Source: Celeribacter indicus (GTDB lineage Bacteria; Pseudomonadota; Alphaproteobacteria; Rhodobacterales; Rhodobacteraceae). From it: a stretch of 64,000 bases of DNA. This document shows, in pieces, positions 38,870 through 56,129 of the stretch. Position 1 is the first letter of the stretch, and each line of letters begins with the position of its first letter. The position numbers were made by a program, and so were the translations under genes. The stretch spans positions 2,418,001 to 2,482,000 of the forward strand of contig NZ_CP004393.1 of assembly GCF_000819565.1 (NCBI RefSeq). The letters are read 5' to 3'. Below the pieces are notes generated by a model, which was not told where the DNA came from, did not search any database, and worked only from the letters and a program-made list of their open reading frames with translations.

Positions 38870-38916
38870 TGGCTCCGGCGGTAGGGATCGAACCTACGAC
38901 CAATTGATTAACAGTC
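38870..38916. repeat. att core, middle copy (47 bp of tRNA-Asn 3' end)
   Basis: These 47 bases, starting tggctccggcggtaggga and ending at acagtc, are identical to 56083-56129 inside the tRNA-Asn gene, including the anticodon-loop region. Downstream the match stops. It is the left boundary of the phage-like element and at the same time the right boundary of the polysaccharide island. Confidence 0.9.
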
Positions 38917-39034
38917 TAATTTTTACATATATCACATTATAACTATATATAGCAAAATTATCTGGAACTTATTGAAAACACTTTGTATTGTGGTAACTCA
39001 TCCTAACAGTGTATAACAGGGCCATAAACTATTT

Positions 39035-39055
39035 TGTGCCCCCAAGTGTGCCCCC
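39035..39055. repeat. Arm-type direct repeats, left end of phage-like element
   Basis: tgtgccccc occurs at 39035-39043 and 39047-39055, about 120 bp inside the left att core and just before the integrase start. The same nonamer recurs near the right end (55998-56006, with near copies at 55988 and 56009), in the same orientation. They are candidate arm sites for the integrase. Confidence 0.5.
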
Positions 39056-39071
39056 GAAGGACAAATTGATT

Positions 39072-40319
39072 ATGAAGCTCACCGCGCAGAGTGTTGCCAA
39101 GATTAAGCCGGCCGACAAACGCCAACAGATTTCGGATGACAATTGCCCCGGCCTGAACCTCATTGTGCAGCCCTCGGGAAAGAAGGGCTGGGCGGTGCGA
39201 TACAGGATAGGAGACACCCATCGGCGCATGACCCTCGGGGCCTATCCGATCCTGTCTCTGGCTGAGGCGAGGCAACGGGCGCGGGAGGTATTCGCAGCGG
39301 CGGCGGAAGGGCGTGACCCTGCCGAAGAGGTGCGGGCCGCGAAAGCCTCTAAGCCGGAGGATGATCGCGACAAGGTTTCATCGCTTTTGACCCAATACGC
39401 CAAGCGACACCTCAAGAGCCTGAAATCCGGTGCCACGGTGAAGCGCGAGCTTGACCGCTTTGTTGGGGCCGAGTGGGGCGATCGGGATATTCACTCGATC
39501 ACCAAGCGCGATGTGATCGACCTTTTGGACGAAATCGCGGACAGCGGGCGCACGGTTACGGCAAACCGCGTCCGGGCCTATCTCTCGAAATTCCTTAACT
39601 GGTGCGTTGAACGCGATATTCTTCCCATGAGCCCGGCGACCGGTGTCAAGCTAGTGGCGAAGGAAAAGAGCCGTGACAGGGTTTTGAGCGACGATGAGGT
39701 GTGCTGGTTCTGGCAGGCCTGTGACGACCTGGGGTTTCCATGGGGGCCTGTGGGGCAGGTGCTCTTGCTCACCGGGCAGCGTCTTGGCGAGGTGGTCGGA
39801 ATGTCCGACTCTGAGCTGATGGGCGATCTCTGGCACATGGACGCGGGCCGGACGAAAAACGGACGCGCCCATGACGTACCGCTTTCAAAGCCCGTCCGTG
39901 ACATTCTGGCCGGTGTTGAACGGACCGCGGATGAAAAGGGCAGGGTGCAATTCATTTTCACGACCACGGGTGAAACGCCTCTGAGCGGGTTTAACAAGGG
40001 CCGAAACCACATTGCCGGCCGGATGGCTGCAATCGCCTCTAAGGAAGCCGGAGAGGCCGTCACCATTCCGCATTGGACTTTCCATGATCTGAGGCGCACG
40101 GCGGCAACCGGCATGGCGCGGCTTGGGATTGCTGTGCGCGTCACTGAGGCGGTTCTGAATCACGTCTCAGGCACGGGCGGCGGGATCGTCGCGGTCTATC
40201 AGCGGCACGACTATGCCGACGAAAAACGGCGCGCGCTGGGCGCATGGGCCGGGCTGGTGGCGGAGATTGTCACCGGCAACGTTTCCAGTGAGAAGGTGGT
40301 GTCGATCAGGGGCGTGTGA
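39072..40319 (+). CDS. int: Tyrosine-type site-specific integrase (P4 family)
   Basis: The ATG at 39072 yields 415 residues starting MKLTAQSVAKIKPADKRQQI; the upstream start at 39009 would run through the putative arm sites. It has the DUF4102 arm-binding domain (NLIVQPSGKKGWAVRYRIGD), the SAM-like core-binding domain (about 95-180) and a catalytic domain with the Arg in LLLTGQRLGEVVGMS, the H-x-x-R in HDLRRTAATGMARLG, HVSG and the nucleophile Tyr in VAVYQRHDYADEK. It sits next to the tRNA-Asn att copy, the normal place for an integrase acting on that site. Confidence 0.93.
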   Translation: MKLTAQSVAKIKPADKRQQISDDNCPGLNLIVQPSGKKGWAVRYRIGDTHRRMTLGAYPILSLAEARQRAREVFAAAAEGRDPAEEVRAAKASKPEDDRDKVSSLLTQYAKRHLKSLKSGATVKRELDRFVGAEWGDRDIHSITKRDVIDLLDEIADSGRTVTANRVRAYLSKFLNWCVERDILPMSPATGVKLVAKEKSRDRVLSDDEVCWFWQACDDLGFPWGPVGQVLLLTGQRLGEVVGMSDSELMGDLWHMDAGRTKNGRAHDVPLSKPVRDILAGVERTADEKGRVQFIFTTTGETPLSGFNKGRNHIAGRMAAIASKEAGEAVTIPHWTFHDLRRTAATGMARLGIAVRVTEAVLNHVSGTGGGIVAVYQRHDYADEKRRALGAWAGLVAEIVTGNVSSEKVVSIRGV

Positions 40320-40602
40320 CAACCCGGCCGGCAGCTTTGTCATAGGCCGCGCCGCGTTCTCGCTTATCTACTGCCAAGACATACACAACCACTTCCTGAT
40401 CAACGACCTCATAGACCAAACGGATGCCTGGGGATTTGAGTTTGATCTTGTAGCGGTTGGGATTGCCTGAAAGGCGCGCAGAGGGCACATGAGGATCTTC
40501 CAAGCGCTCCGCCAGCTTGTCTGTGAGCCGCTTTCGCACAACGTGATCCAGCGCCTTGAATTCTTTCAGGGCCTTTTTGTGGAATTGCAGATTATAGGTC
40601 AT
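40306..40602 (-). CDS. RelE-family toxin
   Basis: From the ATG at 40602 the 98-residue protein reads MTYNLQFHKKALKEFKALD, then KRLTDKLAERLEDPHVPSA and YKIKLKSPGIRLVYEVVDQE, a compact RelE/ParE-superfamily mRNA-interferase fold with its basic core and the conserved R-L-x-Y-E strand. It overlaps the antitoxin gene by 11 bases and its 3' end overlaps the integrase end by 14 bases. The pair probably stabilises the element. Confidence 0.87.
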   Translation of the reverse strand: MTYNLQFHKKALKEFKALDHVVRKRLTDKLAERLEDPHVPSARLSGNPNRYKIKLKSPGIRLVYEVVDQEVVVYVLAVDKRERGAAYDKAAGRVVTRP

Positions 40603-40792
40603 CAAGCGACACCGAGACGAAGGGGCCACCGGCCCGTTCATCGGCAATCGCATTCAGGCGCGCATCTTCAAGAGCATCTTCCAAGGCTTCTTCACTGACA
40701 ACACGCACACCAATCCGCCTACGTGCCGCACGCATCGCAAGCAGTTTGTTGCCGCTACGGCTGTAGGGGGGTGTAAGTGCAAAGGTGGTCAT
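40592..40792 (-). CDS. RelB/Phd-type antitoxin
   Basis: The 66-residue acidic protein precedes and overlaps the RelE-like toxin gene. The N-terminal half (SGNKLLAMRAARRRIGVRVV) would bind DNA, while the C-terminal acidic tail (LEDALEDARLNAIADERAGG) would wrap the toxin. The family call rests mostly on position and composition. Confidence 0.75.
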   Translation of the reverse strand: MTTFALTPPYSRSGNKLLAMRAARRRIGVRVVSEEALEDALEDARLNAIADERAGGPFVSVSLDDL

Positions 40793-41105
40793 GGTTGGCT
40801 CCTAGTCCTGCTTTATATAGCAACTTTGCTTACCGATATCAATCATAGCTTAAAGACACGTTCGCGCGCGTGGGGGTGGTTGCGTAGAGAGCGCAAAATT
40901 GCGCTCTGTAAAATCGACACCTCCGCGCGCGAGTGGGTAGTTGAGGTTCGGGGCGGGGGGGGGTGATTTTGAAAGGGCCAATTACGCTATAAAGCACGTT
41001 GACAGGAGCGGGGGGCCCATTTAAGTATTATCGCAAAGCGATGGTGTGTCATGTAGCGCACCGGACAGCCCGGCCAGAAATGGTGCGGGCTTTTTCTTTG
41101 TCGGA
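40793..41105. other. Intergenic region with a 20-bp palindrome
   Basis: About 310 bases with no credible gene. It holds the palindrome agagcgcaaaattgcgctct at 40888-40907 (9-bp arms, 2-base centre), flanked by GC-only runs containing cgcgcg on both sides. It may be an operator or a terminator for the toxin-antitoxin transcript. Confidence 0.5.
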
Positions 41106-41495
41106 TTAGTCGTCGGGGAGGTTGTCCGGGAATGGCTCCGGAAGTCCGAACTCATATTTTATATCTCCTCCAGCCATCGTAAGGCGGAGGGTATTGTCAT
41201 GCAGCGACATTTCGCACTGGGCGCCGCGAAGGCGCAGCTCCTGCTCTTTCTCTCTAACGGAGAGTTCGCGGTCTTCTTTCGTCATGATCGTTAGCAAGCC
41301 TAGCAGCTGAAGAACTTCAAAGGTTACCTGGTGCATGTCGGGCGACAGCGCGGGATATGCTTCTTCCAATGTCGCCACGATCTCGGCATTCATGGATCGG
41401 TTGTTCGCTTCGGCAGCGGCCTTGATGCGGTCACGCATTCCGGCAGGCGGACGAATTACGATCTGTCCAGTCTCTGCGTTTTTACTGCGTGCCAT
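41106..41495 (-). CDS. Arc-like ribbon-helix-helix repressor with C-terminal extension
   Basis: The 129-residue protein begins MARSKNAETGQIVIRPPAGM and continues RDRIKAAAEANNRSMNAEIV, an Arc-type ribbon-helix-helix DNA-binding domain (residues about 11-50). The C-terminal part (SVREKEQELRLRGAQCEMSL) adds a coiled region. It is transcribed divergently from a second Arc-like gene at 41620; the 125 bp between them hold two palindromes. By position it is a candidate maintenance repressor of the element, like Arc/Mnt of P22-type phages. Confidence 0.8.
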   Translation of the reverse strand: MARSKNAETGQIVIRPPAGMRDRIKAAAEANNRSMNAEIVATLEEAYPALSPDMHQVTFEVLQLLGLLTIMTKEDRELSVREKEQELRLRGAQCEMSLHDNTLRLTMAGGDIKYEFGLPEPFPDNLPDD

Positions 41496-41523
41496 GCCTG
41501 CTCCATAAGCTGAAAGTCCAAAA

Positions 41524-41536
41524 TCACACTATGTGA
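41524..41536. promoter_or_regulatory. Operator-like palindrome 1 (Arc-type switch)
   Basis: tcacactatgtga has 5-bp arms around a 3-base centre. Its half-site (TCACA/TGTGA) matches palindrome 2, centred 54 bp away, a phase close to five helical turns. Confidence 0.6.
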
Positions 41537-41546
41537 CTATTTTTGA

Positions 41547-41591: not shown

Positions 41592-41619
41592 TAAATTGGG
41601 GCAAATCCGAGGAGAAGAA

Positions 41620-41859
41620 ATGGAGACAGTTCAAATCGGAATTAGATTTCCGAAAGACATGAAGGCTTGGCTAGAGGAGCAATCGCGCCTCAATCGTTCA
41701 AGTCAAAATTCGGAAGTTGTTCGTGCCGTGCGGGCAACGATGAAGGCAGCGGGGGAACAGTTTGGCGACCAAGCCCCCGCTGCGCAAGTGACCAAGGAAG
41801 AAACCCTCAATCAGAAGGAACGTCATCATGAACGCGATGATTCCGCAACCTGCGCCTGA
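41620..41859 (+). CDS. Second Arc-like ribbon-helix-helix protein
   Basis: The ATG at 41620 follows a strong GAGGAGAAGAA ribosome-binding site; an upstream ATG at 41587 lies within the operator. The 79-residue protein reads METVQIGIRFPKDMKAWLEE, then QNSEVVRAVRATMKAAG, a ribbon-helix-helix domain, with a polar tail. It opens the rightward operon of the element and faces the other Arc-like gene, so the pair may form a two-repressor switch. Confidence 0.78.
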   Translation: METVQIGIRFPKDMKAWLEEQSRLNRSSQNSEVVRAVRATMKAAGEQFGDQAPAAQVTKEETLNQKERHHERDDSATCA

Positions 41860-42055
41860 TGCGCAACCGCTCGTTCCCGACAAGCGTATCCCGGCAGCTG
41901 TCGTCCGCACCCTGTGCGGCGGCGTGTCGAACATGACCATTCACCGTTGGCTCAACCGTGACGATTTCAATTTCCCGAAGCCGATCCGAATCGGCAACCG
42001 ACGTTACTGGAAAGAGGCGGACATTATCGCGTGGCTGGAAGCGCAGGAAGGATGA
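41828..42055 (+). CDS. AlpA-like helix-turn-helix protein (excisionase/activator type)
   Basis: The 75-residue protein has a winged-HTH of the AlpA/MerR-like class: RTLCGGVSNMTIHRWLNRDD, NFPKPIRIGNRRYWKEADII, AWLEAQEG. AlpA proteins act as excision or induction regulators in P4-type satellites and many integrated islands. It overlaps the end of the preceding gene and is followed by a chain of small genes. Confidence 0.85.
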   Translation: MNAMIPQPAPDAQPLVPDKRIPAAVVRTLCGGVSNMTIHRWLNRDDFNFPKPIRIGNRRYWKEADIIAWLEAQEG

Positions 42056-42057
42056 CC

Positions 42058-42357
42058 ATGGAAAACAAAATGAAAAACCCCGGCGCGCAGGCTAACGCAA
42101 CCGGGGCGGAAATCCATAAGGGACTGGATATGACGGCAGGATCTCATGTCGCCGACCCGTTCGTCAAGCGGCTTGACGCGCTCCAAGCTGAGGTCCGCGA
42201 AAAGGCCTTGATAAGCAAACATGTGGACGCGGTTCACAGCCTGATCGTGATCGCGCTCGATGCAATCGAAGCCCCGGCCCTAACCGAACGCAACCGCATT
42301 GAGGCGAAAAGATCGCTCGAAATGGCGCTCCTGATCATCGGGGAGAACGTAGCATGA
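42058..42357 (+). CDS. Small unknown protein of the element
   Basis: A 99-residue protein starting MENKMKNPGAQANATGAEIH (ATG 42058; 42052 is possible). It is mainly helical with two predicted helices (DPFVKRLDALQAEVREKALI and HVDAVHSLIVIALDAIEAPA). No family is recognised. It overlaps the next gene by 4 bases, so it belongs to the early operon. Confidence 0.6.
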   Translation: MENKMKNPGAQANATGAEIHKGLDMTAGSHVADPFVKRLDALQAEVREKALISKHVDAVHSLIVIALDAIEAPALTERNRIEAKRSLEMALLIIGENVA

Positions 42358-42563
42358 AATCGAAAATGGCACAGCACATCCAGGCGCAGCAAGACCTTGC
42401 TTGCAGTCTGAAAGGGATAATCGAAGCCATTCTTGTCTTGGACGACCAAGGCGTTGCTCCGGATGCGGTGACGGCGCTCCTGAACGTCGCGCTGGACCAT
42501 GTAATCAGGCTGAACCACAATCTTGATGTTGTGGCGCTTCCCGAAGAGGAGGGCGCGGCGTGA
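42354..42563 (+). CDS. Small unknown protein of the element
   Basis: A 69-residue helical protein (MKSKMAQHIQAQQDLACSLK, then VTALLNVALDHVIRLNHNLD) ending in an acidic tail. It overlaps both neighbours by 4 bases. No family recognised. Its helical layout resembles the gene before it, perhaps an old duplication. Confidence 0.55.
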   Translation: MKSKMAQHIQAQQDLACSLKGIIEAILVLDDQGVAPDAVTALLNVALDHVIRLNHNLDVVALPEEEGAA

Positions 42564-42796
42564 GCGACTTTCCTGAACATCACTTCCGTGAACTCAAGAT
42601 GAACACACCTTTGTTCAACATCACCGTAGCTCTTTCAATCATCCAGAGCCACATCCTTGCCTCTGACTCGGCCTTGGACCCGCATATGATGTGGGGCGGT
42701 AATCACATTAAAGATGATGGCCTTGAGGCCGCAGTCGCCCTGTTGGCACCTGTGATAGACGTGCTGGAGGACCTCTCTTGGGAGGGCGAGAAATAA
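42560..42796 (+). CDS. Small unknown protein of the element
   Basis: A 78-residue protein beginning MSDFPEHHFRELKMNTPLFN, with segments IQSHILASDSALDPHMMWGG and LLAPVIDVLEDLSWEGEK. No recognised family. It starts in a 4-base overlap with the previous gene. Confidence 0.55.
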   Translation: MSDFPEHHFRELKMNTPLFNITVALSIIQSHILASDSALDPHMMWGGNHIKDDGLEAAVALLAPVIDVLEDLSWEGEK

Positions 42797-42798
42797 GC

Positions 42799-43008
42799 AT
42801 GAACTTCACCGATCTTGATGACGTTCTCGCGCTCAAGCCTAAAGGCGTCTTCCGTGTAGAAAATGTCCGTGGCCGCACGATCATCACCGTGAACCGTCCC
42901 GGCGAGCTGGAAGAGATCATTCTGTGCCTCTCCCCTGGTCACGCAAACCAAGTGCGTATGGCGCTTTCGGATCAGGGCCTTACGGGGCTTGTCGCGGAGG
43001 CGCTGTGA
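42799..43008 (+). CDS. Small unknown protein of the element
   Basis: The ATG at 42799 lies 2 bases after the previous stop and gives 69 residues: MNFTDLDDVLALKPKGVFRV, then IITVNRPGELEEIILCLSPG. Beta-rich N terminus, helical C terminus; no family recognised. Its stop overlaps the start of the replication-type gene. Confidence 0.55.
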   Translation: MNFTDLDDVLALKPKGVFRVENVRGRTIITVNRPGELEEIILCLSPGHANQVRMALSDQGLTGLVAEAL

Positions 43009-43538
43009 TGGGACGCGATAAGCGGAATGAGCAGCGACACGAGCACTTCACTACAATGGTGAGGAATACGATGGAGGCGCCCGCCTGGCGGGCGCTCTCA
43101 CCGACTTCACAATCCTTGTACGTATGGGTCCGGCTTGAGTGGCGCGGGCCGAAAGCAAATAACAATGGGAAAATCAGACTGAGCGTCAGGCAGGCAGCTG
43201 AGCGAATGGGTGTAAAGTCTCTCAACACCATCAGCCGCGCTTTTCACGATCTTCAGGCTAAGGGTTTCCTCGTAGTGCGTGAGCATGCGGTTCTCGGCAC
43301 GCAGGGTGAAGCAAAATCGCCGGCCTTTGAACTGACCGAATTGCCCCTGCCGAATGCAGAATCGAACCAAGGGCAGCGCCTTTACAGGAATTGGCGAGAG
43401 GGACACGATTTCCCGGTCATCCGAGCCGTTGCTCATAACCCCACCGGTCGCGGCCCAAAATTAGAATCCTGTCGCAAAAATGAAGACGGGGCCGTCTCAA
43501 AAATTGCGACGTTCCCTCGGAGGCCGTCGCAAAAATGA
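43008..43538 (+). CDS. Replication-initiation-type winged-helix protein, 3' end in a repeat array
   Basis: The ATG at 43008 gives 176 residues: MGRDKRNEQRHEHFTTMVRN, APAWRALSPTSQSLYVWVRL, KIRLSVRQAAERMGVKSLNT, ISRAFHDLQAKGFLVVREH. This is a winged helix-turn-helix of the kind found at the N terminus of phage and plasmid replication proteins. No helicase or primase domain follows. The last 25 codons lie in palindromic repeats (43471-43564), where the frame ends early. A continuing frame downstream (43535-43753) suggests that a one-base difference between the repeats has shifted the original C terminus. Confidence 0.65.
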   Translation: MGRDKRNEQRHEHFTTMVRNTMEAPAWRALSPTSQSLYVWVRLEWRGPKANNNGKIRLSVRQAAERMGVKSLNTISRAFHDLQAKGFLVVREHAVLGTQGEAKSPAFELTELPLPNAESNQGQRLYRNWREGHDFPVIRAVAHNPTGRGPKLESCRKNEDGAVSKIATFPRRPSQK

Positions 43539-43608
43539 AGACGGGCCGTCTCAAAAATTGCGACGAAACCGACGATCTGACGGCATCCCCCGTCGCAATT
43601 TTTGAGAC
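43471..43608. repeat. Iteron-like palindromic repeats (candidate origin)
   Basis: A roughly 40-base imperfect palindrome, from gtcgcaaaaatgaagacggg to gtctcaaaaattgcgac, is present at 43471-43510 and again at 43526-43564 (one G shorter). The 17-base arm gtctcaaaaattgcgac recurs in inverted orientation at 43592-43608. Such arrays inside or next to a rep gene are typical of origins bound by their own initiator. Confidence 0.6.
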
Positions 43609-43753
43609 ATCCTTACCTACCATACCCACTGGTGCAGACGCAGCCAAGAAGACGCCCTTGCACACTGTGCCCCCCGGTAACAGCAGAAAAAACAGCCTCA
43701 CGGCAATGAAACAGCAGGAACAGGCAGATGACACCAATGGAAAAACACGATGA
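43535..43753 (+). CDS. Small ORF, possibly the shifted C terminus of the replication protein
   Basis: Seventy-two codons, MKTGRLKNCDETDDLTASPV, then FETSLPTIPTGADAAKKTPL and a lysine/glutamine-rich end. It overlaps the end of the upstream gene, has no clear ribosome-binding site and looks like an unstructured tail. It is either a separate small protein or the natural end of the preceding gene before a frameshift in the repeats. Confidence 0.35.
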   Translation: MKTGRLKNCDETDDLTASPVAIFETSLPTIPTGADAAKKTPLHTVPPGNSRKNSLTAMKQQEQADDTNGKTR

Positions 43754-43964
43754 ATTTCCGCCCCTCGATAAGTGGCGGTTTGATGACATGACGTCGAAGA
43801 CGGAGAAGCTTTGGGGCTTGCCGTCTATCGCCAAGGCGCTGGGTGTGAGCGTGGACAAGGCAAGGAAGCTGGCACAGAAGGACGATGTGCCAATCTATAG
43901 ACCAGACGGCGCGACTTACATGGCGTTCAGATCGGACCTCATGGCATGGCTGAGGACGAAGTGA
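43728..43964 (+). CDS. Small helix-turn-helix protein
   Basis: A 78-residue protein (start 43728 or 43740) with KLWGLPSIAKALGVSVDKAR and KLAQKDDVPIYRPDGATYMA, a MerR/excisionase-type helix-turn-helix with a wing, ending FRSDLMAWLRTK. DNA-binding proteins of this sort often precede the packaging genes in phages, where terminase small subunits use the same fold. Here a separate P27-type small terminase exists, so the role is more likely regulatory. Confidence 0.65.
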   Translation: MTPMEKHDEFPPLDKWRFDDMTSKTEKLWGLPSIAKALGVSVDKARKLAQKDDVPIYRPDGATYMAFRSDLMAWLRTK

Positions 43965-44012
43965 TAAATGCAGAATTTGGCCGCTAACCTATCCGGCCAT
44001 TTTGGCCCCATG

Positions 44013-44178: not shown

Positions 44179-44213
44179 TTGGCGAAGAAAACGGCGCGGC
44201 GCACTGTCGGGCC

Positions 44214-45416
44214 ATGTTCAAGATCTTCCGTCGCTCCGAAACGAAATCCTTCGCTGATCCCTCACCGGATTTGCTGTCCCTGTTCGGGATCACGCCGACC
44301 GCTGCGGGTGTGGCGGTGTCGTCGGAGGCTGCGCTTCGTGTTCCCGCCGTCTCCTCGGCCATTCGCCTGATTTCGGAGGCGACAGCCTCGCTCGAAGTCA
44401 AGGTGAAGCGGATCGGTGCAGACGGCACGGAAGCTGACGATCCGGGCTCGTCCATTCTAGGACTTCTCCGTGACCAGGCGAATGACTGGACGGACGGCTT
44501 TTCCTTCATCCGCGACTTGGTGATTGACGCCCTGTCCGATGATCGCGGCGGTCTGGCCTTCGTGAACCGGATCGACGGGCGTCCGGTGGAGCTCATTCGC
44601 TATCGCGCAGGGATCATGAGCGTGGATTACGAACCGGACACCGGCGAGCCGTCCTATCGAATCTCAGGCCGCGTGGTGCGCTCTCAGGATGTGATCCATC
44701 TTCGCAGCCCGTTCGGACGGGCCCCGCTTTCACTGGCGCGCGAGGCCATCGGACTTGCGATAGTCATGGAACGGCACGGATCGAACCTTTTCGGATCCGG
44801 AGCCCGGCCATCGGGCGTTTTGAGTTTCCCCAAGGGCATGGGCGAGGAATCGGTGAAGAAGGCGCGAGAGGCGTGGCGCAAAACTCACGAGGGCGGCGAA
44901 ACCGGCCGCACCGCGATCCTGTATGACGGCGCCAGCTTCACGCCGCTGCAACTGACCTCGACCGACAGCCAGTTTCTGGAGAACCGGCAGTTCCAGATCA
45001 CGGAAATCGCACGGGCGTTCAGGGTGCCGCCTTCGATGCTCTTCCAGCTCGACCGAGCGACGTGGAGCAATTCGGAACAGATGGGGCAGGAATTCCTTAC
45101 CTACAGCCTCGAGCCTTGGCTGCGCGCGCTCGAAGGGGCGCTCCGGCGGGCTCTGTTCCTGCCGGATGAGCGCCCGCGCATGGCGATCCGGTTCGATCGC
45201 GACGACCTGACCCGCGCCGACCTCACGGCGCGCGCGACGGCGATCAACAGCCTGATCGCGAGCCGCACTATCAATCCCAACGAGGGCCGCGACTGGCTCG
45301 GCCTCGCTCCGTACCAGGGCGGCGAGGAGTTCTTCAATCCCAACATTTCTACCTCGGGCGGCGCGGCTGTCGCGCGAGATCCCGAAGACAAGGAACAGAT
45401 CGACAATGCAGATTGA
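44214..45416 (+). CDS. HK97-type phage portal protein
   Basis: The 400-residue protein is a Phage_portal family member: RVPAVSSAIRLISEATASLE near the N terminus, DVIHLRSPFGRAPLSLAREA, ASFTPLQLTSTDSQFLENRQ, ITEIARAFRVPPSMLFQLDR and the late SIASRTINPNEGRDWLGLAP-type segment. It forms the dodecameric ring at one capsid vertex for DNA entry. It starts the head module and overlaps the next gene by 11 bases. Confidence 0.93.
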   Translation: MFKIFRRSETKSFADPSPDLLSLFGITPTAAGVAVSSEAALRVPAVSSAIRLISEATASLEVKVKRIGADGTEADDPGSSILGLLRDQANDWTDGFSFIRDLVIDALSDDRGGLAFVNRIDGRPVELIRYRAGIMSVDYEPDTGEPSYRISGRVVRSQDVIHLRSPFGRAPLSLAREAIGLAIVMERHGSNLFGSGARPSGVLSFPKGMGEESVKKAREAWRKTHEGGETGRTAILYDGASFTPLQLTSTDSQFLENRQFQITEIARAFRVPPSMLFQLDRATWSNSEQMGQEFLTYSLEPWLRALEGALRRALFLPDERPRMAIRFDRDDLTRADLTARATAINSLIASRTINPNEGRDWLGLAPYQGGEEFFNPNISTSGGAAVARDPEDKEQIDNAD

Positions 45417-48554: not shown

Positions 48555-48556
48555 TC

Positions 48557-49326: not shown

Positions 49327-49733
49327 GCGCCGAACTTGCCGTTCAGAAAGCCATACGTGCACGATTGATCGGATCGGCCGGTCTGACGGCGCTTGTTCCT
49401 GCCGCCGCAATCCTTGATCGCAACGAGCGCCCGGCGTCATCGCCGGCGATCATTCTCGGCGAGAGCCAGTCTGTGGACGAGGGAGACAGCCTCAGCCGAT
49501 CGCACACGCGGGTGTTTCACACGATCCACGTCTGGTTGCGGGAGCCGTCTCTCGAAGGCGTCAAGAGGATCTGCGGAGAGATTCGGGCGGCACTGAAGTC
49601 GCACCGGCCCGATCTGGGGGCTTTCCATTGCGCGGACTGGCGGGTGTCGGGGATGCGATACCTTCGGGACGGCGATGGGGTGACCTCCCACGGTGTGGTG
49701 ACGGTCGATGTTCTCGTATCGGGGGACGGCTGA
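49323..49733 (+). CDS. DUF3168 tail completion protein
   Basis: A 136-residue protein: MSAELAVQKAIRARLIGSAG, PAIILGESQSVDEGDSLSRS, HTIHVWLREPSLEGVKRICG, GVVTVDVLVSGDG. The pattern of an N-terminal helix followed by x-I-x-V-W and a final beta strand is that of DUF3168 (gpU-like tail terminator) proteins. It shares a base with the next gene. Confidence 0.87.
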   Translation: MSAELAVQKAIRARLIGSAGLTALVPAAAILDRNERPASSPAIILGESQSVDEGDSLSRSHTRVFHTIHVWLREPSLEGVKRICGEIRAALKSHRPDLGAFHCADWRVSGMRYLRDGDGVTSHGVVTVDVLVSGDG

Positions 49734-50056
49734 TGAGGGCCGGCAAGATGCGTCACAAGATCGAGATCAGGGCCGTTGCCGTCGAACCGAATGAATTCGG
49801 AACACCGGTCGAGAGCAGCCAGGCGTCCAAAATCCTGCGGGCCGAAGTAGTTCAGCAGACCACGGAGGAATTTATCCGTGCGCAGGGCGCGCTCGATGAA
49901 ACACTGATTCTGTTCCGTGTTCGAAATCCCGGCGGGGTGACGACCTCGATGCGTGTCATTTACCGGGGCGACACGTACGGCATTCGCGAGATCGTTCCCA
50001 TTGAGAACGAGCGCGGACTTGAACTGCGCTGTCGGAAATCAGGGGGACAACCGTGA
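49733..50056 (+). CDS. Phage head closure protein (head-tail joining, SPP1 gp16-like)
   Basis: The ATG at 49733 gives 107 residues: MRAGKMRHKIEIRAVAVEPN, SQASKILRAEVVQQTTEEFI, GVTTSMRVIYRGDTYGIREI. It starts with the usual G-x-x-R-H-x-I-x-I strand and has the V-x-Y-x-G-x-x-Y-x-I motif of Phage_H_T_join proteins. It overlaps the terminase small subunit gene by 4 bases. Confidence 0.88.
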   Translation: MRAGKMRHKIEIRAVAVEPNEFGTPVESSQASKILRAEVVQQTTEEFIRAQGALDETLILFRVRNPGGVTTSMRVIYRGDTYGIREIVPIENERGLELRCRKSGGQP

Positions 50057-50499
50057 TGCGTGGAGTGAAGCCCGAAATGAAAACCGATCCGGAAGCCATT
50101 ACCGATCTGGATCCGCCCGGGTGGTTATCCGGTGATGCGAAGGACGAATGGGTGCGCGTCATGCCGATCCTGTCGAAGCGGCGCATCCTGACTGCGGCAG
50201 ATGTGGGCAGTCTGGAAAACTTTTGCGTCGCGATGGGGCAGGTACGGGAAATGGAGCGTGTCCTTCAGGAAAAAGGCGCCGTCTATCAGGCAGGCGATAT
50301 GCTCAAACGAAATCCGGCGGCAAGCATCCAGGCGGACGCGATGAACCGCGCGCGGCTTCTGGCGGCGGAGCTCGGCCTCACGCCGGTGTCGCGATCGCGC
50401 CCGGCAATCCGTGATGATGCCGCACCAGAGGAGGATGATCCCTTGAGCCTCGGCGGCCTTTTCGGCTGGCAGGGCGGGCTCGGCGGTGCCGTGCAATGA
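50053..50499 (+). CDS. terS: Terminase small subunit, P27 family
   Basis: A 148-residue protein with PGWLSGDAKDEWVRVMPILS, LTAADVGSLENFCVAMGQVR, VYQAGDMLKRNPAASIQADA and RARLLAAELGLTPVSRSR, all signatures of phage terminase P27 (N-P-A motif, L-G-L-x-P-x-x-R). It would recognise the packaging site. The arrangement here, after the adaptors instead of before the portal, is not the usual HK97 order. It overlaps the large subunit by 4 bases. Confidence 0.92.
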   Translation: MMRGVKPEMKTDPEAITDLDPPGWLSGDAKDEWVRVMPILSKRRILTAADVGSLENFCVAMGQVREMERVLQEKGAVYQAGDMLKRNPAASIQADAMNRARLLAAELGLTPVSRSRPAIRDDAAPEEDDPLSLGGLFGWQGGLGGAVQ

Positions 50500-52106
50500 G
50501 CGAGGGACGGACGGTAACTGCATCAACTTTTCCCGACTGGATCTATGACGCGTCGGAAATTCCGGATCCCATGGGGTTCGGAGAGCGCGCTGTAACCTTC
50601 CTGCGGATGCTGCGCCACCCGAAGAGCGGGCGTGCCTTCCAGCTCGACCCATGGCAGGAGCGCATTGTGCGCCGCATTTATGGTCCGCGCCACGAGGATG
50701 GTTCGCGGATCGTCAAGACGGTGGTGATCCTCGTCCCGCGTGGCAACCGGAAAACCTCGCTGGCGGCCGCGCTGGAGGCGCTTCATACGGTCGGGCCGGA
50801 GGCGGTGCCGGGTGGCGAAGTGATCTCGGCGGCTTCCGATCGCAAGCAGTCGCGCATAGCCTACGAGGAGTTGCGCGGCCTCATGTTAGCACATCCGAAG
50901 ATCGCGCCGCATGTCCAGCCCAAAGATTACCGAAACCGGATCGAGTTTCCGAGGCTGCGCAGCTTCTGCGAAGCGATCAGCGCCGACGCGGGAACGCAGC
51001 ACGGTCGCACACCGGTCTTTGTCCTGGCGGATGAACTTCACGCGTGGAAGAAGCGCGATCTGTGGGACGTGCTCCGGTCCGGTCTTGTGAAAACGCGCGG
51101 CTCTCTTCTGGTGGTGGCGACGACCGCTGGGCGCGGTCAGGAAAATATCGCCTGGGATATCGTGGACGATGCGCGCAAGATTGCGCGCGGCGAGGTGGAC
51201 GATCCCTCTGTTCTGCCCGTCCTGTTCGAGGCGGATCGCAACTGCGACTGGACGGACGAGGATCTCTGGTTCCGCGTCAATCCGGGGTTGCGACACGGAT
51301 ATCCCGATATCGAGGGCCTGCGCCAGCTTGCCCGTGAAGGCGAACGCCGCGTCGGGGATCGCGAAGCCTTTCGGCAGCTCAACCTGAATATCTGGCTCGA
51401 TCATGCGACCGAACCTTTCGTGGAAATGCCGGTCTATGACGAAGGTGCCAAGCCGGTCGATCTGGAAGGGCTCGAAGAGGATCCCTGCTGGATCGGCGTA
51501 GATCTGTCGAGCAATGACGATTTGACGGTCGCTGTCGCGTGCTGGAAAGATCAAGACGGAGGGTTTCTGGTGTGGCCGTGGTTCTTCTGTCCCGAGGAAA
51601 ACCTCCGGGGGCGCGAAGAGCGGTCGGGCGTGCCCTACACGACATGGGCGGAGCAGGGACACATCATCCCGACACCGGGCAACGTGGTGGATTTCCGAGT
51701 AGTGGAGGATCACATTCGCGAGTTGTGCGCGCGCTTCAACGTCCGTGAGATTGCGTTCGATCCGCACCTTGCACGCAATATGCTCAACAACCTGCTCGAG
51801 GATGGTTTCCCGGCTGTCGAGATGCGGCAGGGGTGGGTGACGATGGCTCCGGCGGTAAAGGAGCTCGAGCGCGTGATTGTTGGCCGAAAGCTTCGGCATG
51901 GCGGGCATCCCGTTTTGCGCTGGAACTTCGCCAATATCGAAGTGCGAACGGACCCGGCTGGCAACCGGATGTTCCACAAGGGCAAGTCGAAAGACAAGAT
52001 CGACGGCGCCATCGCCGCGGCGATGGCTGTGGCGCGGGCTGCGGCGGGCGATGGCGGACTGACGACTGAGGCGGACTGGTTCAACGACGATATGTGGGTG
52101 GCGTGA
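50496..52106 (+). CDS. terL: Terminase large subunit
   Basis: The 536-residue packaging motor has an N-terminal ATPase with Walker A VPRGNRKTS (about residues 80-88), Walker B VFVLADELH (about 174-182) and the coupling TTAGRG (about 209-214). The C-terminal RNase H-like nuclease has WIGVDLSSNDDLTVAV (Asp at about 336), EIAFDPHLARNML and SKDKIDGAIAAAMA with the last Asp. All catalytic residues appear present. It ends in a 1-base overlap with the tape measure gene. Confidence 0.93.
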   Translation: MSEGRTVTASTFPDWIYDASEIPDPMGFGERAVTFLRMLRHPKSGRAFQLDPWQERIVRRIYGPRHEDGSRIVKTVVILVPRGNRKTSLAAALEALHTVGPEAVPGGEVISAASDRKQSRIAYEELRGLMLAHPKIAPHVQPKDYRNRIEFPRLRSFCEAISADAGTQHGRTPVFVLADELHAWKKRDLWDVLRSGLVKTRGSLLVVATTAGRGQENIAWDIVDDARKIARGEVDDPSVLPVLFEADRNCDWTDEDLWFRVNPGLRHGYPDIEGLRQLAREGERRVGDREAFRQLNLNIWLDHATEPFVEMPVYDEGAKPVDLEGLEEDPCWIGVDLSSNDDLTVAVACWKDQDGGFLVWPWFFCPEENLRGREERSGVPYTTWAEQGHIIPTPGNVVDFRVVEDHIRELCARFNVREIAFDPHLARNMLNNLLEDGFPAVEMRQGWVTMAPAVKELERVIVGRKLRHGGHPVLRWNFANIEVRTDPAGNRMFHKGKSKDKIDGAIAAAMAVARAAAGDGGLTTEADWFNDDMWVA

Positions 52107-54076
52107 TGGCGCGGGATGAAGAAAGACTTGTGGTGCTGCTCGAGGCGCGCGTGAACGAATTCGAGAAGCGCATGGCCAAGGCGGAAAAGAAGGGCACGAA
52201 GACCTACACGAGCCTTCAACGCCGGAGCCGGTCCGCATCGCGTCAGATGGAGCACGATATGTCCCGTTCGTCGCGTGCGGTAAACAAGGCGGTCTCTTCG
52301 GTCAGCAATGAAATCGGCACCATGGGAAAGGCGTTCCTCGGAGGTTTCCTCGGCGCCACGCTGTTCGAGACGTTGAAATCCGCGACACGGGAAGTTCGGG
52401 TGCTGGCTTCGGAAGTGGCGGAGGTGGGCAATCAGGCGCGCAGGGCGGGCCTTTCCGCCTCCGAGTTTCAGGAATGGGCCTATGTGGCGCAGCAGAACCG
52501 GATCGGCGTCGATAGCCTTACGGACGGCCTCAAGGAGCTCTCGCTCCGGGCGGACGAATTCGCGACGACAGGAAAGGGCAGTGGGGCGGAGGCATTCGAG
52601 CGGCTCGGGTATTCGGCGGATGAGCTGGCGAAAAAGCTGGAAGATCCATCGGAGCTCATGCTCGAGATCCTCGGGAGGCTTGAGAAAATGGACAAGGCCG
52701 CGCAGATCCGCATTGCCGACGAGGTGTTCGGCGGCACGGGCGGGGAGCGCTTCGTGGAATTGCTCGACCAGGGCGCTCAAAAGATCCGCGCCACCAAGCA
52801 GGAGGCGACCGGCCTCGGTATGGTCATGTCGGATGAGTTGATTGCGAAGGCCGAAATCCTTGATCAACAGTTCAACCGGATCTCGAGAACCGTCGGAACG
52901 ACACTCAAAAGTGCCATCATCAGCGCCGCCTATTCGCTCTCCGAGTTTATCGACGGGTTCAGAGCCTTTGAACAGCAACGCACCGCCACGCTGGAGAGCC
53001 GGCAATCCGAGATCATGGCGGAAAAGGCTCGTCTCCATGCGACCGATCAGGAGCAATCGTCATGGTCTGAACGCAAGCGGTCGAGGACAGGCATTGCGGC
53101 AGAAGTGATCGCCCAACAGATTGCTGCGCTCGACGAGGAGGAAAACAAGATCATCGCGATCTTGTCGCAGCGGAACACCCCGCAATGGACACCCGAAAGC
53201 GACACATGGACACCGCCGCCAGCGCCCCCTGGCGGGACGGGCGGTCGGAGCAGCGCCTCCTCCTCATCCTTTGAAAACCGGGCCGCGCGGATCGCGAGCG
53301 AGGCGGCGGCACTTGAGGCTCAGGCAACGGCCTATGGGCAGATCGCGGCGTCGGGGCGCGACTATGCGGACGCCATGGAACTCGCACGGGTCAAGGCCGA
53401 ACTCCTTGCGGCAGCTCAGGCCGACGGGGTTCAGGTCACGCCCGAGATGGAAGCACAGATCGAGCTCCTGGCAAAGGCTTATGTGAACGCGGCCAACGCG
53501 GCCGATAACGCTCGCCAGAAGATTGATCAGGTGCAATCTCAGGCGCGGGAGGGAGCGGACGCGCTGGCGGACGTCTTCATGTCGCTCACCGAGGGGATAG
53601 ACGGGTTGCGCAGCGCCTTGGCAACTCTGCTTCGGCAGATCGGGAACGCACAGATCAGCAAGCTCATACGTGGCCTGGAAGCCAGTTCCGGTGGCGGGGG
53701 ATTGCTTGGAAGCCTGTTTGCCGAGGGTGGCTATACCGGAGACGGGGGCACTCATGAACCTGCGGGCATCGTTCACCGGGGAGAATACGTCTTCTCGAAA
53801 AGGGCGACCAGGGCCTTGGGGGCGGGCAATCTCCATGCCATTCATGAGCGCGCCAAGCGGGGATATGCGTCAGGCGGCTATGTGGGCAGATCGGCGGGTG
53901 GGGCGTCGCCGCGCGCGGAGCGCCTTGCCATCCACGTCACAGCTGCCTTCGACGAGAGCGGCAATGCCTATGTGAAGAACGTCGCGCGGAACGAGGCCGC
54001 CTCGGCAGCACAGGTCGTGCGTGCGGGTGTTCCGGCTCAGATCCAACAATACAACCAAAACCCGAGGAAACGATAA
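52106..54076 (+). CDS. Phage tail tape measure protein
   Basis: The ATG at 52106 gives 656 residues. The N terminus is coiled coil (LVVLLEARVNEFEKRMAKAE), followed by the tape-measure segment LSASEFQEWAYVAQQNRIGV, the glycine-rich GGTGGERFVELLDQGAQKIR, more coiled coil (to about 500), and the C-terminal AEGGYTGDGGTHEPAGIVHR, EYVFSKRATRALGAGNL repeat typical of tape measure proteins in Rhodobacterales phages. Its length predicts a short siphovirus-like tail (roughly 100 nm). No tail-assembly chaperone gene pair precedes it. Confidence 0.87.
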   Translation: MARDEERLVVLLEARVNEFEKRMAKAEKKGTKTYTSLQRRSRSASRQMEHDMSRSSRAVNKAVSSVSNEIGTMGKAFLGGFLGATLFETLKSATREVRVLASEVAEVGNQARRAGLSASEFQEWAYVAQQNRIGVDSLTDGLKELSLRADEFATTGKGSGAEAFERLGYSADELAKKLEDPSELMLEILGRLEKMDKAAQIRIADEVFGGTGGERFVELLDQGAQKIRATKQEATGLGMVMSDELIAKAEILDQQFNRISRTVGTTLKSAIISAAYSLSEFIDGFRAFEQQRTATLESRQSEIMAEKARLHATDQEQSSWSERKRSRTGIAAEVIAQQIAALDEEENKIIAILSQRNTPQWTPESDTWTPPPAPPGGTGGRSSASSSSFENRAARIASEAAALEAQATAYGQIAASGRDYADAMELARVKAELLAAAQADGVQVTPEMEAQIELLAKAYVNAANAADNARQKIDQVQSQAREGADALADVFMSLTEGIDGLRSALATLLRQIGNAQISKLIRGLEASSGGGGLLGSLFAEGGYTGDGGTHEPAGIVHRGEYVFSKRATRALGAGNLHAIHERAKRGYASGGYVGRSAGGASPRAERLAIHVTAAFDESGNAYVKNVARNEAASAAQVVRAGVPAQIQQYNQNPRKR

Positions 54077-54717
54077 TGGCCACATATCCGTTGGATTTCC
54101 TGTCCGATGAGCTTGGCCTCGAGGCGGTGACTTTCGATGTGCAGCGCAACGAGGAAATGCACGGCACCGGAGACGGGGCAGTCTGGCGCACAGAACTCGC
54201 CCGCCCGCTCTGGAAGATCACCGTGAGCCTACATCTGCGTCACGCCGAACTGGGGCGAGCGATTGACGCGAAGCTCCTCGGGATGGGGGCAGGGGATGAC
54301 TTCCTGTTCGCCGATCCGTCCTACCACGGTCCGGCATGGGGACCGGGCAGCTACCTCCTGCATGACATGACAGTCTGCCTCAGCGGGGTAAGCGAGGACC
54401 GAAGATCGGTTTCGCTCACAGGACTGGGCAGCAATTTCCTGTTGTCCGCCGGGGACCGGTTCTCGATCGAATACGGGGCTGGAAAAGTCTATTTTGGAGT
54501 GTTCCGCGAGAGCCGAAGCATCGCCTCGTCCGCCGACGCAGCGGAAATCCAGGTGTTTCCCTATCTCCCTCTCGGGATCCCCGTCGGCGCAGAGCTCGAG
54601 CTGGTGAAGCCGTTCCTCAAGGTCATGCTGGCACGGGATGGCTACATGCCGTTTACCGTGCGCCCTGGCCTCTATGCCGAGAGCGCCTCGATCACCATGT
54701 TGCAGAAGGTGCGATAG
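54076..54717 (+). CDS. Distal-tail-type protein
   Basis: A 213-residue beta-rich protein: MATYPLDFLSDELGLEAVTF, VWRTELARPLWKITVSLHLR, ELGRAIDAKLLGMGAGDDFL, FADPSYHGPAWGPGSYLLHD. It resembles phage proteins that follow the tape measure gene and form the distal tail ring (DUF2460/Dit-like); the exact family is uncertain. It is the last recognisable virion gene of the element; no tail-tip or fibre gene follows. Confidence 0.65.
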   Translation: MATYPLDFLSDELGLEAVTFDVQRNEEMHGTGDGAVWRTELARPLWKITVSLHLRHAELGRAIDAKLLGMGAGDDFLFADPSYHGPAWGPGSYLLHDMTVCLSGVSEDRRSVSLTGLGSNFLLSAGDRFSIEYGAGKVYFGVFRESRSIASSADAAEIQVFPYLPLGIPVGAELELVKPFLKVMLARDGYMPFTVRPGLYAESASITMLQKVR

Positions 54718-54718
54718 G

Positions 54719-55045
54719 ATGCGGCTCAGAAAACATCTGTGCAATGCGCTGGAAGCCGCACTCTACAGGCGATCCTTCACCATACCGGCCGGCGGCGAGC
54801 CGATCTGGGAGGCCTTCCTGAGACTGTCTCGCGCCCGCCGCCACCATGCGGCCGGACCGGAGGCGATCAGCCACCAGGAGATCCTTGCCTATTGCCGCTG
54901 CTGCCGCATCCCGTTCGCGCCTCATCACATCGAGGCGATCGAGGCGATGGACGAAGTTTGGCTCGAATGGACGAGGAAGCCGAAGGATCAAAAGACCGAG
55001 ACACTGCCGCTCACCGCAGCGCTGTTCGATTTCAGCTTCGGGTGA
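54719..55045 (+). CDS. Unknown protein at the end of the virion module
   Basis: The ATG at 54719 gives 108 residues: MRLRKHLCNALEAALYRRSF, LRLSRARRHHAAGPEAISHQ, ILAYCRCCRIPFAPHHIEAI, DEVWLEWTRKPKDQ. The segment SHQEILAYCRCCRIPFAPHH and DEVWL are like small phage proteins found beside tail genes in alphaproteobacterial phages (possible tail-assembly function). No firm assignment. Confidence 0.55.
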   Translation: MRLRKHLCNALEAALYRRSFTIPAGGEPIWEAFLRLSRARRHHAAGPEAISHQEILAYCRCCRIPFAPHHIEAIEAMDEVWLEWTRKPKDQKTETLPLTAALFDFSFG

Positions 55046-55049
55046 TGCT

Positions 55050-55556
55050 ATGAACCTTACGCTCATTGATCAGAAGAAAAAACGAAAACAGCAACGGAAA
55101 GAGAGGGACGCACGGCGCGGGAGGCTGGGGCAGGGGCGCTTTGACGCGCTGGTGAATGAACTGGCTGAGGTGATCCGTCTCGCTTTTGAGGCAGGGGCGA
55201 CAGCAAGCGTGTGGGGGCTGGAAGGTCCGCTGCGCCATGCCATTTGCTCTGATCTGTGTTTACAGGGCTGGGCATGGGAGACAGCTGATCTGATGGCGCG
55301 CGAACTCATGGATTGCGCGCACAGGCGCGTCGGAGCTAAAAGACCAACTTGGAATGAAGGGCAGCCGGAATGGGTGATTTACGAAGGAACTCTGATCGAA
55401 CGGACCCTTTGTGCCAATTGTCACAAGCCATTGCCAGAGGGAAGGCCGAAGTTTTGCAGCGACTTGTGCAAAGGAGCACATCACGCAATCACGGCACGAT
55501 TGAAAATCGCCAACGAGGATCAGGCTATCAGGATTGCAACCGGATTGATGTTATAA
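55050..55556 (+). CDS. Zinc-ribbon protein, first part
   Basis: The ATG at 55050 gives 168 residues. A basic N terminus (MNLTLIDQKKKRKQQRKERD) precedes a helical domain (FDALVNELAEVIRLAFEAGA) and a zinc ribbon CANCHKPLPEGRPKFCSDLC (about residues 121-140). The next frame immediately continues with three more ribbons of the same kind without its own good start, so this gene and the next piece were probably one protein. No known family; nucleic-acid binding is likely. Confidence 0.6.
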   Translation: MNLTLIDQKKKRKQQRKERDARRGRLGQGRFDALVNELAEVIRLAFEAGATASVWGLEGPLRHAICSDLCLQGWAWETADLMARELMDCAHRRVGAKRPTWNEGQPEWVIYEGTLIERTLCANCHKPLPEGRPKFCSDLCKGAHHAITARLKIANEDQAIRIATGLML

Positions 55557-55954
55557 ATCGATGCCTCCACTGTGGAAAGGCTTTGCCGGAAGACAGCCAC
55601 CCCACGCGAAAATATTGTGACCAGAAATGCCAGACCGCATCGCGAGTTGCCTTGGACAGTGCCGCGCGCCGCGCCGCTCGCGCTGGTAGAATCTGCCCGC
55701 TGTGCGGCGGTGCCGTGAGCGACGACAAGCCTGCAAATACCATTTATTGCAGCGCGCGTTGTCAGTCACGCTCTCACCCGCCGAAGCTGCATCAAAAGTT
55801 GTGCGCTAACTGCGGAGCAAATTTCAGGACAAAGCATCGTCATCAAGCAACGTGCTCTAAATCCTGCGGTAAGGCACTGGAATGGAAAAGTGGGTCTCGC
55901 AACCACCTGCGCGCCCGCCTGACTGCCGCCCGATTCGACGCCATGTTTTGTTGA
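55557..55954 (+). pseudogene. Triple zinc-ribbon continuation in a shifted frame
   Basis: Directly after the stop at 55556 another frame reads NRCLHCGKALPEDSHPTRKY-C, ICPLCGGAVSDDKPANTIYC and CANCGANFRTKHRHQATC, three C-x2-C...C-x3-C ribbons. The formal start at 55370 lies within the preceding gene and encodes nonsense there, and no good start codon or ribosome-binding site precedes the first ribbon. Either a one-base change split an ancestral four-ribbon protein or translation shifts frame at about 55540-55556. Confidence 0.5.
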
Positions 55955-55987
55955 TAAATGACCTTGAACTTTTTTGGGGGGCAAATC

Positions 55988-56017
55988 TGTGCCTCGCTGT
56001 GCCCCCATCGTGCCCCC
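55988..56017. repeat. Arm-type direct repeats, right end of phage-like element
   Basis: tgtgcctcg, tgtgccccc and cgtgccccc start at 55988, 55998 and 56009, 66-95 bp inside the right att core. They match the pair at 39035-39055 beside the integrase gene. Confidence 0.5.
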
Positions 56018-56082
56018 GAGACTTGCAGCAAAAGACGGAGCCCGAAGGGGTTTTGGTAAACCCATGTAATATATGGAATTTT

Positions 56083-56129
56083 TGGCTCCGGCGGTAGGGA
56101 TCGAACCTACGACCAATTGATTAACAGTC
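56083..56129. repeat. att core, right copy within tRNA-Asn
   Basis: The 3' part of the tRNA gene, identical over 47 bases to 38870-38916 and over its first 23-24 bases to 15905-15928. Confidence 0.88.

Follow-up and report, generated by a model that had tools for sequence, protein, structure and literature searches.

Gene content of the element at the tRNA-Asn gene

We analyzed a 64,000-nucleotide stretch of Celeribacter indicus DNA (NZ_CP004393.1, positions 2,418,001-2,482,000 of the forward strand; hereafter the window, in which all coordinates are given). It contains a compact element that is probably a capsid-forming phage satellite building its own head and tail shaft. The element is bounded by two exact 47-bp direct repeats, attL and attR, whose starts lie 17,213 bp apart, and the right-hand copy forms the 3′ terminus of a tRNA-Asn gene that is intact (Table 1). 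The copy in the window is integrated between att repeats at a tRNA, indicating site-specific integration. An earlier interpretation made from the letters only (the sequence-only reading) had proposed a 17.2-kb element with exact att repeats, and these boundaries were recovered here.

Next, Pfam was run on all 30 predicted proteins of the element, and PHROGs on 20 of the 30. As shown in Table 1, families were matched for the head, packaging, connector, tail tube, tape measure and distal tail (Dit) proteins, in agreement with the portal-to-distal-tail gene set of the sequence-only reading. Two tail-assembly-chaperone-type genes, one following the portal gene and one following the Dit gene, had been absent from that reading. 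The nearest solved chain of the protease-capsid fusion was Rcc01687 (6tb9), which we take to be the capsid of the Rhodobacter gene transfer agent (GTA). The median ratio of nonsynonymous to synonymous substitution rates (dN/dS) was 0.27 for the tail tube and 0.44 for the tape measure compared with 0.15 for the large terminase subunit TerL, with synonymous sites near saturation, and the tail genes look to be under constraint. The predicted model of Dit was poor (mean predicted local distance difference test score, pLDDT, of 69), and a solved-structure profile search reached a distal tail protein at E 0.69 only; the model of the zinc-ribbon protein zr1 was largely helical (pLDDT 72), with a weak match to an MYM-type zinc finger. 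None of these was used as evidence.

The left arm carries the integrase, Arc-like switch and AlpA-like protein that had been named before, each with a family match. Two further assignments held in part. The supposed RelBE-like pair contains a ParE/RelE-type toxin, of which the antitoxin partner is assigned by position only, and the supposed replication gene with iterons does have iteron-like repeats, the gene itself giving only weak winged-helix/MarR-like matches.

Table 1. Predicted features of the element and its integration site in window coordinates
Feature	Position	Strand	Basis or remark
attL, 47-bp copy of tRNA-Asn 3′ end	38870-38916	+	exact repeat
Tyrosine integrase, 415 aa	39072-40319	+	PF13356, PF00589
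ParE/RelE-type toxin	40306-40587	-	PF05016, E 2e-11
Toxin partner, probable antitoxin	40592-40792	-	position only; no convincing family match
Arc-like repressor	41106-41495	-	PF03869
Small Arc-like protein, divergent	41620-41859	+	weak PF03869; PHROGs Arc-like
AlpA-like activator/excisionase	41828-42055	+	HTH_17 above cut-off, PF05930 at cut-off; phrog_66
Four small genes	42040-42357, 42354-42563, 42560-42796, 42799-43008	+	no Pfam or PHROG match
Putative replication initiator (winged helix)	43008-43538	+	weak MarR_2/HTH_36 in Pfam; no PHROG
Iteron-like direct repeats	43471-43565	+	repeat families D2 and D20
Small gene	43535-43753	+	no Pfam or PHROG match
Second HTH_17/excisionase-like protein	43740-43964	+	Pfam and PHROGs
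Portal	44214-45416	+	PF04860, E 1.7e-83
Tail-assembly-chaperone-type protein	45406-45792	+	phrog_313, E 4e-18
S78 protease fused to HK97 major capsid protein	45792-47312	+	Pfam (capsid PF05065)
phrog_5707 protein	47325-47702	+	PHROGs
HNH endonuclease (packaging)	47716-48072	+	PF01844; phrog_144
Tail tube protein	48069-48554	+	phrog_158, E 1.3e-19; weak in Pfam
gp6-like head-tail connector	48551-48871	+	PF05135
HK97-gp10-like protein	48871-49326	+	PF04883
gp17-like tail completion protein	49323-49733	+	PF11367
Head completion protein	49730-50056	+	PF05521
Small terminase subunit TerS, P27 type	50053-50499	+	PF05119; phrog_83
TerL	50496-52106	+	PF20441, PF03354
Tape measure protein, 655 aa	52109-54076	+	phrog_10574, E 4e-144, residues 3-638
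Distal tail protein (Dit type), end of tail module	54076-54717	+	phrog_1302, E 2.3e-15; profile match to phi2LM21 Dit-position protein
Phage_TAC_18 protein	54707-55045	+	PF23812, E 2e-9
Zinc-ribbon protein zr1	55050-55556	+	possible family marker
Zinc-ribbon protein zr2	55559-55954	+	weak PF09889
attR, within tRNA-Asn	56083-56129	+	exact repeat
Intact tRNA-Asn(gtt), integration target	56083-56157	-	right att copy is the 3′ end of this tRNA

Search for tip and lysis genes

Neither Pfam (30 proteins) nor PHROGs (20 proteins) recognised any family of holins, endolysins, tail peptidases, hub proteins or receptor-binding proteins in the element. The sequence-only reading had likewise seen no holin, endolysin, tail-tip peptidase or receptor-binding protein. 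The ~2.0 kb between the end of the tape measure gene and attR are occupied by Dit, the Phage_TAC_18 (hereafter TAC_18) protein and the two zinc-ribbon proteins. The stretch from the tail peptidase to the J gene spans about 2.9-3.5 kb in three full phages, namely Sinorhizobium phage phi2LM21 (MF614627), G075 and G289. The tape measure of phi2LM21 is 39% identical to that of the element over 489 residues, and its Dit and hub proteins are similar to those of some relatives of the element; however, phi2LM21 is 46.6 kb long and has a complete tip, a chitinase/endolysin and an annotated putative holin. Besides the tape measure, no protein of the element matched phi2LM21 at E 0.01.

Relatives were then collected. 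A tape-measure search of 295 genomes of the same bacterial family gave 13 with a match at E 1e-10, and a TerL profile search gave 256 confirmed relatives in genome contigs, of which 80 were kept, and at least 592 in IMG/VR, of which 80 were also kept. Loci were taken as TerL ±10 kb. Proteins of phi2LM21 and of two full phages from the family search (G042 and G234) served as tip and lysis queries against loci with at least 4 kb beyond the tape measure, duplicates being kept. These queries had no match anywhere in 100 of the 107 tape-measure-bearing loci with the element's TerL. A match was obtained in 25 of the 28 tape-measure loci with another or a missing terminase (the three query sources among them), and the three without one are fragments of compact elements, namely L220, with an incomplete TerL, and the two elements in G091 that are cut by contig ends.

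The seven exceptions were inspected singly. In L089, an endolysin gene lies next to a second portal and probably belongs to a neighbouring prophage; in L119, the match is Dit only. L122 and L239 have a hub-position protein (25-68% to phi2LM21 p46) directly before TAC_18, and in L134 and L172, which are the same locus, the J pieces lie outside the element. In the seventh, L288 (1160-1813), a J-like fragment on the opposite strand adjoins a truncated capsid gene, which may reflect a chimera or a rearrangement. No member with a peptidase plus a J of its own was found among the loci examined.

The unassigned open reading frames (ORFs) right of TerL in 16 att-delimited tail-bearing elements (99 ORFs) were also searched. 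Pfam found no lysis family among them; the 18 families matched included integrase, HTH, KAP ATPase, PIN, SieB-type exclusion, one minor tail protein and one GTA-gp10-type protein. With PHROGs, no lysis name occurred among the 25 of 42 families listed.

These results bear on the possibility that the element is a minimal phage able to propagate by itself, with tip and lysis encoded in small, unrecognised genes. Five small genes (42040-43008 and 43535-43753) lack a Pfam or PHROG family, and Dit and two chaperone-type genes are carried, as such a phage might have. However, the space beyond the tape measure is already filled and is shorter than the peptidase-to-J stretch of full phages, and several relatives lack even Dit. 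We consider this explanation unlikely.

Variation of the tail module among relatives

Among 113 full loci, 69 had a recognised tail tube and tape measure, 22 a tape measure without a recognised tube (including the full phage G042), 22 neither, and none a tube alone. Once G042 and loci with identical TerLs were excluded, there were 78 tail-bearing loci against 20 others. The gp10 and gp17 genes occurred in 74 and 73 of these 78, respectively, compared with none of the 20. The second HTH_17 protein was matched by profile in 60 of 176 loci. We also observed that zr1, with its C-terminal zinc ribbon, is common to tail-bearing members and to some loci without this tail module; it is a possible family hallmark.

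The right end of the tail module also varied. Dit was found by profile in 12 of 176 loci (duplicates included), comprising the window element, G026, G250 and a few others, and was absent in G046, G047 and G295, where TAC_18 directly follows the tape measure. The Neorhizobium member L122 has both Dit (52%) and a hub protein (68% to phi2LM21 p46), which is as far as the tail module was seen to extend. The Dits of members resemble those of full phages: that of a Shinella member is 50% identical to the phi2LM21 Dit, and that of L119 is 41% identical to the Dit of the Rhodobacteraceae phage in G042. In the full phages G075 and G289, whose Dits are 33-34% identical to that of the element, Dit is followed by genes for proteins of 200-203 aa and 139 aa and for a J-like protein of 1013 or 833 aa. 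The first two would be hub-sized and peptidase-sized by size and place, and only J is assigned by similarity.

Loci without this tail module were examined further. Ten large ORFs from seven att-delimited "tail-less" loci were inspected singly, and other loci by profile and by similarity to the tape measure of L068. L068 was one of the seven and was rejected as tail-less, as it carries a tape measure of a different family; it and its copy L152 were removed from the TerL counts, and the "tail-less" count is an upper bound. Tail coding by a distance rule had mis-scored loci (e.g., L060 and L061) and was replaced by recoding. On the TerL tree of 95 rows, the tail label changes at least 9 times, 5 of them forced by well-supported branches, and a single clade for the 19 tail-less rows was rejected (approximately unbiased test, p-AU 1.4e-6). 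Nine changes were still needed without L068 and L152. With only the six vetted tail-less loci, 5 changes were needed and one clade was again rejected (p-AU 2.4e-8). The portal tree gave 11 changes, 7 forced, with L068 scored there as tail-less. These trees suggest that the tail module was repeatedly either gained or lost inside the satellite lineage.

In the six vetted loci, the large ORFs right of TerL encode a kinase and a helicase (L066), a MauJ-domain protein (L077), a subtilase (L079), a DUF4365 protein (L083), SIR2/NB-ARC (L087) and M78-HTH and AAA proteins (L095); one 463-aa protein was unmatched. Pfam and PADLOC were also run on 120 ORFs in total, comprising 68 unassigned ones to the left of TerL from the 16 elements and 52 from the right arms of the seven "tail-less" loci; defence models including IetS/IetA and RmrA were matched (first 25 of 54 and of 154 families listed). 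Defence-type genes stand where other members have the tail module. Together with tail-targeting defences described in passages of PMC12987554, this would fit a satellite whose tail proteins mainly poison or divert the tail assembly of a helper instead of building its own particle. However, the element retains its head, connector and tail-tube genes in full and in order, and the absence of any tube without a tape measure among the 113 loci (one of which, G042, is a full phage) also speaks against it. Such a role is quite unlikely.

Size and tRNA targets of relatives

Eight of the 13 family genomes contained compact elements with both ends present (G000, which is the window genome, G025, G026, G031, G046, G047, G250 and G252). 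G026 has a second element cut by the contig end, and G091 has two, on contigs that start at the tape measure and reach a tRNA ~3 kb beyond. G042 and G234 are full phages, as is G075 by gene order; the thirteenth match, G089, was left out of locus inspection. In the eight elements, a tRNA 3′ end was repeated at 16.8-20.2 kb: Asn (17,213 bp), Trp (17,511), Arg (17,717), Leu (17,128), Gln (18,049), Val (20,168), Thr (16,786) and Ser (17,635). The att pair of G252 is weak (14 bp, one mismatch). The portal-to-tape-measure order of recognised genes was kept in relatives of clades A and B at different tRNAs. In the 20.2-kb member (G031, L033:11209-13998), we observed that TerL is split by a reverse-strand gene of 336 aa.

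The 80 kept genome loci are, by record title, alphaproteobacterial (Rhodobacterales, Hyphomicrobiales, a Sphingobium, a Zavarzinia and others), together with some "Proteobacteria bacterium" metagenome-assembled genomes (MAGs). One further MAG, L119, bears the title Cytophagaceae, and its TerL clusters with the TerL of G250. In a whole-genome sample, 6 of 385 genomes of the class had a TerL match of at least 44% identity that covered most of the protein, and in a phylum sample, matches outside the class reached at most 32%. No phage among 50,697 records matched the element's TerL at 60% or more, the best being ~38% among the matches listed.

A part of a tRNA was repeated across TerL in 30 of the 80 genome loci. 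The repeats were spaced 15.5-17.9 kb in 27 of these, with the 3′ end repeated in 26 and the 5′ half in L067; several of these repeats are only 15-20 bp long. L080 and L118 (11,890 bp each) and L138 (7,093 bp) were dropped from the size table, as was L125, which is the same locus as G047. Tail-bearing att-delimited elements numbered 27 (19 genome loci and the eight family members) and measured 16,288-20,168 bp (median 17,396). The attR falls within 10 kb of TerL in att-delimited loci, although that reach bounds the visible size. Among the 80 kept IMG/VR contigs, 42 measured 13-21 kb, 29 were below this range, 3 fell at 21-25 kb and 6 exceeded 25 kb. The sequence-only reading had looked to a conserved block between tRNA-Asn repeats in other genomes; the same head-to-tape-measure block does recur there, flanked by tRNA repeats about 17 kb apart and with no lysis gene recognised, but at many tRNAs, tRNA-Asn not being the sole target.

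Several members occur in one genome in Martelella lutilitoris (L075, L083 and L087) and in Xanthobacteraceae 501b (L067 and L068), and some same-genome members at different tRNAs are nearly identical in TerL, hinting at recent movement. Related TerL, portal and capsid genes also occur on circular plasmid records of 16-23 kb from Paracoccus, Roseomonas and Methylorubrum (L053-L056), including records of 17,494 bp from Paracoccus marcusii, 16,883 bp from Roseomonas mucosa and 16,127 bp from Methylorubrum. L053 and L056 carry a tape measure (tblastn), and L055 was scored as having one. These plasmids are possibly episomal satellites.

The element might alternatively be a decaying prophage that lost its right end, a deletion derivative; the sequence-only reading had entertained a prophage stripped of its last 10 kb and had named 25-40 kb relatives with tip and lysis genes as its sign. 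The head, packaging and tail genes are indeed of the HK97-like siphovirus type. However, end point and size are shared by members at many tRNAs in many genera, the att sites, integrase and open frames are intact, and the tail genes look constrained. Further, an element of 25-40 kb that combines this terminase with tip and lysis genes of its own was not found within TerL ±10 kb or in G296, the 1 of the 6 IMG/VR contigs over 25 kb that was read whole. Because of this lack of a long sibling in the stretches examined, and from the recurrence and size, we judge the deletion derivative very unlikely.

Candidate helpers and the resident gene transfer agent

In Shinella curvata, a member of ~18.7 kb (L134:473-19171, identical to L172; IMG/VR G296, 72.9 kb) lies within the J gene of a prophage. 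This prophage shares tip genes with phi2LM21 (Dit 47%, p46 68%, p47 61%, J N-part 66%) and is kin to the phages that the member resembles in its own Dit. The two flanks of the insertion agree at 23 of 29 positions, of which 10 bp form an exact core; this is a single case. A comparison of J genes, which took in 50 of the 80 kept loci, gave 7 of 50 satellite-bearing genomes (including Shinella) compared with 0 of 289 class genomes; genome sets and scoring depth differ between the two, and nothing was inferred from it.

The window genome (G000:C1) contains two prophage stretches near 1.850 and 1.917 Mb (L365 and L366), which are identical over 20 kb (100%) and have a tape measure, J and a gene that looks lysozyme-like by eye. 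It also has a GTA-like cluster, with a portal at 1.695 Mb and a gp15-type gene at 1.705 Mb of C1, which is read as a GTA from its portal and capsid matches and the gp15-type gene. No tape-measure, Dit or tip similarity of the element to the resident prophage stretches or the GTA-like cluster was detected. That tip and lysis are taken from this GTA and not from a phage is extremely unlikely. The presence of the cluster and its distant matches (25-32%) to the element's portal, capsid and gp6 would fit such a source, but no tape-measure, Dit or tip match was detected, and the well-matching Dits match phages.

Neighbourhood of the element

A third att-like copy of the tRNA-Asn 3′ end (21 bp, exact), absent from the sequence-only reading, lies at 15908. 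Between it and the element (15908-38869), the G+C content is lower, for the most part 53-61%, and higher in a patch near 21-25 kb. The att-like copy and the lower G+C suggest that another island lies in tandem with the satellite, on its left. Transposase-like ORFs, named by eye from their sequences, lie at 35.4-38.6 kb of the window, and the start of a transposase-like ORF in the resident prophage matches that of the ORF next to the satellite.

Comparison with known satellites

An integrase and an AlpA-type regulator mark phage-inducible chromosomal islands (PICIs). The element shares these and site-specific integration with the capsid-forming ones (cf-PICIs), as well as its own capsid, protease, portal, connectors, HNH, TerS and TerL and the lack of recognised lysis genes. 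By the definition quoted in passages of PMC10690885, cf-PICIs depend on a helper for tails. Compared with that definition, the element differs in adding a tail tube, gp17 tail completion protein, tape measure, chaperone-type genes and Dit. Unrelated satellites including cf-PICIs are stated to encode predicted tape measure (tmp) genes in parts of PMC12987554, where the legend of Extended Data Fig. 10b gives putative tmp genes in a sampling of cf-PICIs; members of the window element's family could be among those.

According to the same parts of PMC12987554, PLE satellites of Vibrio cholerae assemble chimeric tails to which they contribute the tape measure, chaperone and hub. The element similarly encodes a tape measure and tail chaperones, and some members a hub protein, which in PLEs are paired with helper tail parts. 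In contrast, PLEs rely on the helper for capsid and tail tube, whereas the head and tube of the element are its own and the tip is missing. The cf-PISPs are episomal satellites of Vibrio without tail genes, and were not found outside Vibrio in the survey as given in passages of PMC13230959; they are small circular elements with satellite head genes, as are the circular Paracoccus, Roseomonas and Methylorubrum relatives, which would extend episomal satellites beyond Vibrio. However, the window copy is integrated and has tail genes, and two of the circular relatives carry a tape measure. From an autonomous temperate siphophage, the element differs in having no recognised complete tail tip, receptor-binding protein or lysis genes.

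The comparison also took in parts of the review PMC11389934 and the preprint PMC13345588. No paper on this alphaproteobacterial satellite family was found among the results listed from the open-licence literature. Kin are already in print (cf-PICIs, some of them shown with putative tmp genes, PLE chimeric tails and cf-PISPs).

Interpretation

The predicted genes combine att repeats, own regulators and a complete head, packaging, connector, tube and tape-measure set that stops at Dit, and the same plan and size recur in relatives. We therefore favour the view that the element is an integrated capsid-forming phage satellite that builds a head and tail shaft, most likely borrowing the tip and lysis from a helper, and we regard this as probable. 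Helper dependence and chimeric particles are its inferred part. Several points weigh against it. The tape measures of the resident prophage stretches, which are candidate helpers, have no detectable similarity to that of the element. The loci reach ~10 kb on each side of TerL, so that much longer elements could not show both ends, and a tRNA att pair was lacking in 50 of the 80 genome loci. Finally, the tip queries came from three phages only, and unrelated tip proteins would escape that search.

As a satellite of this kind, the element would be derepressed through the Arc/AlpA switch during the lytic programme of a helper phage, and would then excise and replicate. Its 17 kb would be packaged into its own small head by its own HNH, TerS and TerL. 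Its tail tube would be polymerised round its own tape measure on the helper's tip complex (hub, peptidase, J and fibres), to which the captured Dit, or Dit and hub protein in a few kin, may serve as an adaptor. Lysis would be supplied by the helper.

The sequence-only reading had placed the element as a satellite intermediate between a cf-PICI and a prophage. The gene content fits; however, the trees with their repeated label changes suggest repeated gain or loss of the tail module and not one intermediate step. More tentatively, with slightly less than even confidence, we propose an alphaproteobacteria-wide satellite lineage whose members differ in how far down the tail their own parts reach before stolen ones take over. 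Some would supply the head only, others also the tube and tape measure, and others Dit as well, or Dit and hub, but none the tip. In this proposal, the head module would be constant, the tail module repeatedly gained, lost or exchanged, the helper-matched Dits would act as adaptors, and a packaging limit of 15-20 kb would apply; the Shinella member in the J gene of a phi2LM21-related prophage is part of the same picture.

If the satellite reading is correct, satellites do more than steal tails and can replace any head-side part of the virion, leaving to the helper only the tip that recognises the host. The element would set its own tail length, and which helper it uses would depend on a single small adaptor protein, so that helper specificity would become testable. 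It would also belong to a common alphaproteobacterial satellite family that allows direct comparison of similarly sized sisters with and without a tail module.

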